A stretch of DNA of 64,000 bases from Methylobacterium sp. Leaf104 (GTDB taxonomy: Bacteria; Pseudomonadota; Alphaproteobacteria; Rhizobiales; Beijerinckiaceae). The notes beneath the pieces were generated by a model. It searched no databases, was not told the origin of the DNA, and saw nothing but the letters and a program-made list of their open reading frames with translations. Positions 38,253 to 46,467 of this stretch are shown here, in pieces. The DNA lies in the NCBI RefSeq assembly GCF_001422885.1, contig NZ_LMMZ01000004.1, positions 62,001-126,000 on the forward strand. The letters run 5' to 3'. Numbering within the stretch: position 1 is the first letter of the stretch; the number at the start of each line of letters is the position of its first letter. Both the position numbers and the translations under genes were made by a program.

Positions 38253-38520
38253 GGCGGATCTCCGCCCGCCCGGGGCCGGAATCCGGCGCGCGGCAGGCCT
38301 GATTGTGAGGGAAGCGGCGGCCGTGAGCCGGCCGTCCCGACGAGAAGGCGCCCGCGCCGGGCCTTGTTCCCTCCGGGTCTAGTTCTCTCCGGGCCCTGTT
38401 CTCTCAGGGATCCGGTCCCTGGATCGATCCGGCGGGTGGAACGGGGACGGGCCTCGCCCCGTTGGCCCCGCGGTCCGCGCCGGGCGTCCGCGCCGGATCC
38501 GCTTGTCCTGCGAAGGCCGC

Positions 38521-38841
38521 ATGCTGCTCCTCGTCCTGTTCCTCCTGCTCTTCGCGACCCTGGTGCTGATGGTCGTCCGGCGGCGCTACATCGGCCGCCT
38601 CACCTCCCTGGCGACGCTGCTGGCGGTCGCCATGCTGATGATCTGGATGCAGGACAACGGGCTCCTCCCCGGGACCCAGGGCCGGTTCAGCGACAGCCGC
38701 CCCCATACCAGCCTCGACCCGCCCCTGCCCGCGCCGCCCATGCCTGCGCCGCCCATGCCTGCGCCGCCCATGCCTGCGCCTCCCATGCCCACGCCTCCCA
38801 TGCCCACGCCTCCCATGCCCACGCCCCCGCGCGCGCCCTGA
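38521..38841 (+). CDS. small membrane protein with Pro-Pro-Met-Pro repeat tail
   Basis: About 106 residues. Two hydrophobic helices (MLLLVLFLLLFATLVLMVV; LATLLAVAMLMIWM) and a tail made of PPMPA/T repeats encoded by a 15-base tandem repeat. The repeat tail is probably extended and exposed; copy number may vary. The start at 38521 has GAAGG just upstream. No family recognised. Confidence 0.5.
   Translation: MLLLVLFLLLFATLVLMVVRRRYIGRLTSLATLLAVAMLMIWMQDNGLLPGTQGRFSDSRPHTSLDPPLPAPPMPAPPMPAPPMPAPPMPTPPMPTPPMPTPPRAP
38731..38820 (+). repeat. six tandem copies of a 15-base coding repeat
   Basis: Three copies of GCGCCGCCCATGCCT (38731-38775), one GCGCCTCCCATGCCC and two ACGCCTCCCATGCCC. They encode APPMP/TPPMP units in the membrane protein above. 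The sequence gradient from first to last copies shows stepwise duplication. Confidence 0.9.
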
Positions 38842-44447: not shown

Positions 44448-44724
44448 GGCGGAGGAAGGCCTGGGGGATCCGCGCAAGTCGACATCCCCTTCGTTCCGTG
44501 ATCGTTGCGGTTTCATCTGAAACCACGACGGTCGGGGGACTGCGCTCCGCTCGACGGTGGGAGGCCGACAGGTTCCCCGGACGCGAGACCCTGCCGGCCT
44601 CGGCATTCCGTCCCGACGAATCCCGAACACGTGATCGGTCCCGCGCTCGAAATCCGGGCGCTGCGGACCGGTGCGCGCCGCGTTGTTAGCGATTGCTTAC
44701 GGGATCGTGCCGAACATTGCGGAC

Positions 44725-46467
44725 ATGCGATTCTTGTCGAGACAACAGGCCGCCCGGCCCCCCGCGACTCCCGCGCACGCCCCGCCCCTCGCGGAGCTTC
44801 GGGCGGGGGCCGATCCGTCGCCGCAGGCCGGCCACGGCGATGTGCTGGACGCGATCGAGAGCGACGTCCTCAAGGCGATCGGCAACGTCGGCGATTCCAT
44901 CGCGGTCACGCGCACGGAGGTCGTGGACATGCAGGCGGGGCTGGCCGCCATCCGCGCCCGCATGAGCCACCTCGCCGAGGCGGCGGAGGCGGCGAGCGCG
45001 GCCAGCGCCGGCTTCACCGGGCGGACCGAGGGCCTGTCCACGGTCTCGACGCGCATCACCGACGCGATGGACCAGGCCTCCGGGCATCTCGACCAGGCGG
45101 GCAGCCGGGGCGCCGAGGCCCGGGCCCTGATCGGCGCCCTGGCGACGGCCGGCAACGAGATCGCCAGCATCGTCGACACGATCTCGACGGTGGCGCGCCA
45201 GACCAACCTGCTGGCGCTGAACGCCACCATCGAGGCGGCCCGGGCCGGCGAGGCGGGCCGCGGCTTCGTCGTCGTGGCAGCCGAGGTGAAGGCCCTCGCG
45301 GTGGAGACCGCCCGGGCGGCCGACGACGTCCGCAGCCGGATCGCGCGGCTGCGCGAGGGGGCGACCGCCTCCAGCGCGGCCATCGGCGCGGCGGCGGAGG
45401 CGATCGAGGCGGTCCGGCCCGCCTTCGGCACCGTGCGGGGCATCGTCGACCAGCAGGTCGGCATCGTCACCCACGTGGTCTCGGAGGCCACGCGCACGGC
45501 GGGGCTGATCGCGGACGTGAGCGCCGGTGCCGGCGAGACCAGCGCGGCCACCGTCGCCCTCGATCGACGGGCCGAGGCCATGGAGAGCGCGGCCGGCCAG
45601 GCCGCCGAGGAGGCCGCCGGCCTCGGGCGCCGCTTCGTCGCCGTGATCCGCCAGAACGAGATCGGAGACCGGCGCCGGGCCGACCGCTACCCGGCCGACC
45701 TGACGGTGGCGATCCGCGGTGGCGCGCGCACCCGCACCATCGACCTCAGTGCGGGCGGCGCCCTGCTGGCCCGGCCCGAGGTCGGGCCGGAGATCGCCGC
45801 CGGCCAGAGCCTCGACCTCGACATCGCCTCGATCGGCGCCGTCCGGGCGCGGGTGGCGGCGGTGAGCCCCATGGGTCTGCACTGCGCCTTCGACGGGCTC
45901 GATGCCGGAACCGACGCGAGGCTCGCCGACCGGCTCGGGGCGATCCAGGCGGAGTACGCCCCCCTGGTCGCCCGGGCCCAGGGCCTCGCCGGCCGCATCG
46001 GCGACTTGATGCAGGCCGAGATCGCCGCCGGGCGCCTCTCCCCCGCCCTCCTGTTCGACACCGACTACGTGGCGGTGCTCGACACCGACCCGCGCCAGTT
46101 CACGACCCGCTCGGTCGAGGTCCTGGAGCGCCTGCTGCGCCCGGTGCTGGAGGCGCCGCTCGCCGAGGATCCGGCGATGATGTTCTGCATCGTGGCCGAC
46201 CGGAACGGCTACGTGCCGGTGCACAACCGCGCGGTGTCGCAGCCGCAGCGGCCCGGCGACCCCGTCTGGAACAACGCCCACAGCCGCAACCGGCGCATCT
46301 TCGACGACCGCACCGGCATCACCGCGGCGCGCTCCACCCGCCCGGCCACCGTCCAGGTCTATCGCCGCGAGGTCGGCGACCGCATCGTCATGGTGCGCGA
46401 GGTCGACGCGCCCATCCGCGTCCAGGGCCGTCACTGGGGCGCCTGCCGGACGGCCTACCGCTTCTGA
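44725..46467 (+). CDS. soluble chemoreceptor with PilZ and C-terminal sensor-like domains
   Basis: About 580 residues and no membrane segment. First a helical chemoreceptor signalling domain with the hairpin tip [19 protein letters not shown] (about 158-176) followed by [14 protein letters not shown]. Next a PilZ domain at about 313-405 with both c-di-GMP motifs: RRADR (Arg317-x3-Arg321) and DLSAGG (340-345). Last an ~150-residue domain with [48 protein letters not shown] and an R-HWG end, as in the tail of several alphaproteobacterial receptors. It probably senses c-di-GMP and an internal signal. Start is uncertain; I chose 44725. Confidence 0.85.

Follow-up and report, generated by a model that had tools for sequence, protein, structure and literature searches.

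A soluble PilZ chemoreceptor of Methylobacterium sp. Leaf104 with a predicted cytosolic Cache-type domain at its C-terminus

Introduction

Which signals does a chemoreceptor read when it has no segment in the membrane? The question is raised by a gene of Methylobacterium sp. Leaf104 that lies in the window, the whole 64,000-nucleotide stretch of DNA analysed here. An earlier note on this DNA had described its product as a soluble chemoreceptor combining a signalling hairpin, a PilZ domain and a C-terminal block, and had proposed that intracellular c-di-GMP and another signal are coupled through it to the chemotaxis kinase. Our analysis suggests that the protein is probably a Cbp1-type cytosolic chemoreceptor, integrating two intracellular inputs, c-di-GMP and a cytosolic ligand. 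The c-di-GMP idea is already known for such receptors; the new part is the family of predicted cytosolic Cache domains at the C-terminus.

Results

The gene and its signalling hairpin

The coding sequence extends from 44725 to 46467 on the forward strand, stop codon included, and encodes 580 residues from an ATG at 44725 according to the ORF listing of the window. An alternative upstream GTG at 44671 would give an ORF of 598 residues; the ATG was preferred as it matches the N-terminus of a homologue at locus L131. Pfam placed an MCPsignal domain (PF00015) at residues 113-283 (89.4 bits against a cut-off of 34.6, E 3e-25) and a PilZ domain (PF07238) at residues 315-401 (36.4 bits against a cut-off of 22.5, E 7e-9). 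The highest Kyte-Doolittle mean over 19 residues was 1.27 and no stretch reached 1.6, indicating that there is no membrane segment. The architecture given in the earlier note was thus correct in its coordinates, with both named domains above their cut-offs, and so was the absence of a membrane segment. In NCBIfam nine models matched, seven of them chemoreceptors (about E 4e-13), all far below their own cut-offs.

The gene is under clear purifying selection, with whole-gene dN/dS values of 0.21, 0.29 and 0.22 against three close relatives. By region, dN/dS against these relatives was 0.10-0.13 for the hairpin, 0.33-0.40 for the PilZ domain and 0.13-0.39 for the C-terminal tail. The 36 N-terminal codons are loose (1.5, 0.41 and 0.52), and identity to the three relatives is lower over residues 1-36 (39-64%) than in any other region; residues 1-35 (44725..44829, forward strand) form a poorly conserved N-terminal tail predicted to be disordered (pLDDT 32-42). 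The receptor gene is flanked by topA and by a gene for a PhoX-type phosphatase, one on each side. Among the closest relatives, L032 to L036, topA adjoins the receptor gene in four and phoX in five, the L032 locus ending at its contig end, and among the 47 homologue loci neither neighbour was found at the more distant ones. The dN/dS values together with the neighbouring genes common to the nearest relatives argue that the gene is real and not a chance reading frame.

The helical signalling hairpin, delimited by Pfam and the full-length model, comprises residues 36-312 (44830..45660, forward strand) around the MCPsignal core; it was modelled as a monomer, with a modest pLDDT of about 49-75. Its tip, residues 157-191 (45193..45297, forward strand), is the putative contact with CheA and CheW, presumably as in Tsr of E. 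coli. Residues Q159, T160, N166, E170, R173, G178 and F181 of the tip were invariant in alignment A2, whose 33 sequences are the window protein and 32 proteins hand-picked from the 47 homologue loci. Judging from this conserved tip, the receptor would couple to CheA.

The PilZ domain and the likeness to Cbp1

The PilZ domain lies at 45667..45927 of the forward strand, and its strands are present in the model. Both of its motifs are intact, as the earlier note had stated. RxxxR (R317-R321, RRADR; 45673..45687, forward strand) sits just behind the second helix of the hairpin, which ends at residue 312, and is equivalent to R320-R324 of the L131 homologue, while DxSxxG (D340-G345, DLSAGG; 45742..45759, forward strand) was located by a motif check on the sequence. 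Among the 63 PilZ-bearing rows of the alignment, in which the window protein itself and the frameshifted copy L055 are counted, RxxxR occurs in 62 and both motifs in 51. The other 12 rows are without one or both motifs, so that c-di-GMP binding need not be universal in this receptor type. The PilZ label across loci was assigned with a profile derived from the very proteins that it labels; the PilZ domain at L144 was missed by Pfam itself.

The L131 homologue (L131:9532-11274) has 581 residues and is 40% identical to the window protein over 584 columns, end to end and tail included. Its MCP and PilZ domains are above the cut-offs, RxxxR is at R320-R324 and DLSMGG at 346; the other two PilZ matches of its genome are in small ORFs (153 and 124 residues). 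We take this genome to be that of Azorhizobium caulinodans ORS571. On the basis of this presumed identity of the genome and of the RxxxR at R320, not of a record name, the L131 protein is very probably Cbp1.

According to the available text of its description, Cbp1 (AZC_3349) is soluble, is the only PilZ chemoreceptor of A. caulinodans ORS571, and binds c-di-GMP with a KD of 14.94 uM, the binding being lost in R320A (PMC6454048). A cbp1 deletion mutant was impaired in chemotaxis, and the Discussion of that report ascribes the defect to lacking c-di-GMP binding (PMC6454048). The window protein resembles Cbp1 in being a soluble protein with MCP and PilZ domains, of near-equal length and in the same order, with R317 corresponding to R320, and by their sequences the two appear to be of the same receptor type. 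A c-di-GMP input to the window receptor is accordingly supported through its homologue Cbp1. In the available text Cbp1 is described with an MA domain and a C-terminal PilZ domain only (PMC6454048), whereas the L131 sequence contains the tail, which is unmentioned there.

PilZ-tuned taxis chemoreceptors also include Tlp1 and Aer of Azospirillum brasilense. As far as the available text describes them (PMC6406031), these are anchored in the membrane, sense through N-terminal domains and have PilZ at the C-terminus, whereas the window protein has no transmembrane segment, an internal PilZ domain followed by 179 residues, and in those residues a predicted second sensor that is cytosolic and C-terminal. 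The c-di-GMP half places the window protein in a published receptor type, and the tail is the new element.

A Cache-type fold predicted for the tail

The last 179 residues gave no Pfam match up to E 10 and no NCBIfam match above cut-off, and a comparison with the sequences of solved structures returned two chance-level matches only (E 0.66 and 1.0). A model of the tail was predicted from the 45-row alignment A1, consisting of the window protein and 44 of the 47 homologue loci (L055, L077 and L078, broken or partial, were left out), and reached a pLDDT of 93.6 and a pTM of 0.88. Its N-terminal helix (3-33) and strands (84-91, 141-149, 152-165 and 168-178, all in model numbering) fit the PAS-like sheet and long N-terminal helix of the Cache superfamily, the helix being the Cache innovation in the available text of PMC4822843. 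The top Foldseek matches were Cache and related sensors, among them the TlpC dCache domain (E 1.6e-4) and WalK (E 5.7e-4), and were modest, with three at E 0.001 or below and TM-scores of 0.41-0.54 to the tail model. In a second structure comparison, the 50 matches listed were mostly Cache domains with Z from 14.2 to 9.4; the best was WalK 5is1 (Z 14.2, rmsd 3.0 over 133 residues), and others were Campylobacter Tlp3 4xmq (11.7), CitA 8biy (11.2) and DcuS 3by8 (10.6). The tail, residues 402-580 (45928..46464, forward strand), is thus confidently predicted to be a single Cache-type sensor. The domain search that the earlier note had advised for the C-terminal block gave matches at the level of predicted fold and none in Pfam or NCBIfam. 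Of the two signals that the note had directed into the chemotaxis kinase, c-di-GMP is supported through Cbp1, and the other is suggested by the predicted fold.

Membership in the family sCache_3_2 was examined and rejected at the sequence level. The Pfam profile of that family had no match in the window domain and touched 5 of 45 members, with a best E of 0.022, and an hhalign comparison scored 15.0 against 19.6 for the best of 20 column shuffles, using 21 of 30 alphaproteobacterial sCache_3_2 loci that are not certain to be good representatives. The Cache claim is therefore a claim about fold.

The tail shares the single Cache fold with WalK, CitA and DcuS, but in these the domain is extracytoplasmic and belongs to membrane kinases, whereas the tail is predicted to be cytosolic, is C-terminal, matches no profile and is 10-17% identical to them. 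In typical Cache chemoreceptors an extracytoplasmic sensor stands ahead of the signalling domain; the window protein has no transmembrane segment, and its tail stands behind the hairpin. Two Cache families, YkuI_C and Diacid_rec, are found on EAL proteins and on transcription factors, respectively. In the available text of PMC4822843, these two are the principally intracellular exceptions among Cache families that are otherwise principally extracellular, and the tail, predicted to be cytosolic, is like them; the table there shows no certain chemotaxis entry for either family. A literature search found no earlier account of chemoreceptors with a Cache domain in the cytosol or at the C-terminus; subscription papers were mostly outside its scope, and this absence is weak evidence.

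The conservation of the tail motifs, pointed out in the earlier note, was evident across an alignment of 97 tails. Y448, P456, H500, R521 and P563 are identical in all 97, and R524, F526, Y546 and G551 are kept in 96, followed by D528 (95), P507 (89) and N501 (88). These include positions of the motif HNRAVSQPQ, of the pattern HNRxxSxPQ (residues 500-508; 46222..46248, forward strand), and of a second conserved motif of 15 residues (515-529; 46267..46311, forward strand). The residues kept in 96 or 97 tails are first candidates for a pocket or for the fold.

Distribution of the tail and its association with the hairpin and PilZ

Tail matches were detected in 88 of 398 sampled genomes of the phylum (54 of 212 genera), 152 of 397 of the order and 70 of 199 of the family. 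The corresponding counts were 258 of 391 for the family of genome G233 and 47 of 111 for the genus of the window; these samples, searched with the tail sequence or its profile, overlap. The receptor is dispensable, since 64 of the 111 genus genomes are without a match. Broken or strongly diverged copies occur in M. soli, M. planeticum and genome G108 (L055:4756-6535, L078:5895-6491 and L152), which together with the genomes lacking a match suggests repeated loss.

The loci L001 to L150 had been collected with the tail, alone or together with PilZ, and without use of the MCP part; as the best-scoring matches they are biased towards relatives of the window protein. Among their 139 non-identical tail-bearing ORFs, 136 also carry the MCP tip, and the remaining three are fragments, two of them cut by contig ends (L009 and L105) and one being the second half of a frameshifted gene (L055). 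Setting aside three ORFs that repeat the same gene, truncated where the locus ends, gives a count of 133 of 136. The tip precedes the tail in all 136 ORFs with both, the order tip-PilZ-tail holds in 93 of 93, and the tail ends at most 12 residues from the C-terminus in 136 of 139. Hydrophobic segments (mean of at least 1.8) were found in 26 of the 136 ORFs and lie upstream of the tip in 24, so that membrane receptors, too, should have the tail in the cytosol; in L048 and L102 a borderline hydrophobic score falls behind the tip.

Some host proteins add N-terminal PAS, TarH/4HB, HAMP or protoglobin domains. One relative of 1022 residues (L068:1563-4628) has protoglobin, MCP, PilZ and tail, possibly bringing haem, c-di-GMP and tail inputs together on one receptor. 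At L144 an MCP-PilZ-tail protein whose PilZ domain is without DxSxxG (L144:1292-3037) is followed in tandem by an MCP-tail protein without PilZ (L144:3149-4570), and genus g78 repeatedly shows two tail matches close together. At L047:9672-9902 and L049:9386-9568 a short, degenerate piece of another tail lies about 3 kb from the intact gene and is perhaps a decayed tandem copy.

For a tree of tails, the 139 non-identical ORFs were reduced to 97 (60 with PilZ, 37 without), some near-copies remaining; rows were thinned on identity across the final 120 residues and had to have the MCP tip and 140 or more matched residues. The PilZ label changes once on this tree. The PilZ-bearing tails form one side of a single branch with a support of 100/94, in agreement with 99% of 200 bootstrap trees, and shuffled labels need about 30 changes on the same tree. 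Gain and loss of PilZ are not separated on an unrooted tree; we lean towards gain.

Discussion

Proposed integration of two intracellular signals

In the full-length model (pLDDT 73) one continuous helix, residues 394-434 (45904..46026, forward strand; pLDDT of the block 90-96), runs from the end of the PilZ domain into the Cache domain; with a pTM of 0.49, the mutual orientation of the domains is not fixed by the model. We propose that the Cache domain would act as a dimer, its nearly invariant Tyr, His, Arg and Asp residues binding a polar metabolite of the cytosol, and would pass its ligand state to PilZ via the shared helix. Binding of c-di-GMP would fold the RxxxR loop against the PilZ barrel, so both inputs would act on the same helix ends and hence on the hairpin, together setting the packing of its C-terminal helix and thereby CheA activity. 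With such a receptor, swimming would be adjusted to the cell's own metabolic and second-messenger state and not to an outside ligand.

It is also conceivable, but unlikely in our judgement, that the Cache-fold tail binds no small molecule and serves as a dimerisation or protein-docking module for register or arrays, leaving c-di-GMP as the sole signal. Cache domains dimerise through their N-terminal helix, no ligand is known for the tail, and its constant place behind the hairpin, close to the C-terminus, would suit such a role. The conserved set is nevertheless polar or charged, as a ligand pocket needs (Y448, H500, R521, R524, D528, Y546 and R548; 94-97 of 97 tails), and the 37 tree rows that have a tail without PilZ indicate that the tail is independent of the c-di-GMP input. 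That PilZ in turn is a structural relic which does not bind c-di-GMP seems quite improbable, given that both motifs are intact here and in most PilZ-bearing rows, the window's own counted, and that Cbp1 binds c-di-GMP according to the available text (PMC6454048). The relic reading could draw on the 12 rows that miss a motif and on the PilZ dN, which exceeds those of the hairpin and tail in all three comparisons, with dN/dS likewise above that of the hairpin; in the comparison with L035, dN/dS was about equal for PilZ (0.396) and tail (0.390).

A further reading accepts both inputs and changes the output, in that the receptor would bypass the flagellar CheA and act on another Che-like pathway or on adaptation proteins. 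The CheW-family matches of the genome fall on contigs C5, C8 and C23, making more than one Che-like system likely, and the contig of the receptor, C4, has no other MCPsignal or CheW match. A CheR route is also raised in the available Discussion on Cbp1 (PMC6454048), but the same source reports that deletion of cbp1 impairs chemotaxis in A. caulinodans, and the hairpin tip of the window protein is intact. We therefore regard this bypass as unlikely too, and favour a receptor that brings c-di-GMP and a cytosolic ligand to bear on the chemotaxis kinase.

A wider proposal, which we consider nearly balanced but slightly on the doubtful side, is that the tail defines a large and so far undescribed family of Cache sensors that are cytosolic and C-terminal, present only on chemoreceptors in the loci read and in about a fifth of the sampled phylum genomes. 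One lineage, with PilZ between hairpin and sensor, would be a metabolite plus c-di-GMP receptor, and MtpA of Methylobacterium may be a diverged member. The tail would supply a missing sensor for many receptors that have no known input, Cbp1 included, and would show a fold regarded as the main extracellular sensor of prokaryotes working intracellularly on chemoreceptors. How one receptor weighs a metabolite against the messenger of the motile or sessile state becomes testable.

A second paralogue and the cellular setting

The available text of PMC10613068 describes MtpA as a cytosolic receptor of M. aquaticum 22A that serves formaldehyde taxis and thereby methanol taxis and is conserved in clade C; an MCP domain was the only one detected in it at a Pfam cut-off of 0.001, with "no hint for ligand". 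Identity of MtpA (maq22A_c14925; OR01 mtpA, LC833876) with the window type was rejected, because the PilZ domain of L053, the orthologue in M. aquaticum, is clear (E 9e-9). The search of the genus also gave a separate group of matches with E between 1e-60 and 2e-52, spread over 19 genomes that are 6.2 to 8.8 Mb in size; one of these matches, L153:1971-3695 in genome G188, was read. This paralogue, of 575 residues, keeps the tail, RxxxR and DxSxxG, and its hairpin tip is degraded, GDPLWQAAEEFKLLSA replacing a stretch of 15 residues. Its MCPsignal match has E 7e-9, its PilZ match (E 0.0099) is below the Pfam cut-off, and its top hydrophobicity value is 1.34. It is possible that L153 is MtpA; its profile fits by description, as those of other soluble receptors may as well.

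The Leaf104 genome has a single copy of the PilZ-plus-tail part. Its 24 MCPsignal, 10 CheW-family, 34 GGDEF and 10 PilZ matches indicate that the chemotaxis and c-di-GMP pathways are both present. Two of the 10 PilZ matches are in MCP ORFs, one being the window receptor and the other an ORF of 693 residues on contig C40 (L151:813-2822), a second PilZ chemoreceptor, which has three PAS stretches and carries its PilZ domain terminally. Elsewhere in the window, the ORF list contains at 38503-38841 a possible small membrane protein that continues into PPMPA/PPMPT repeats.
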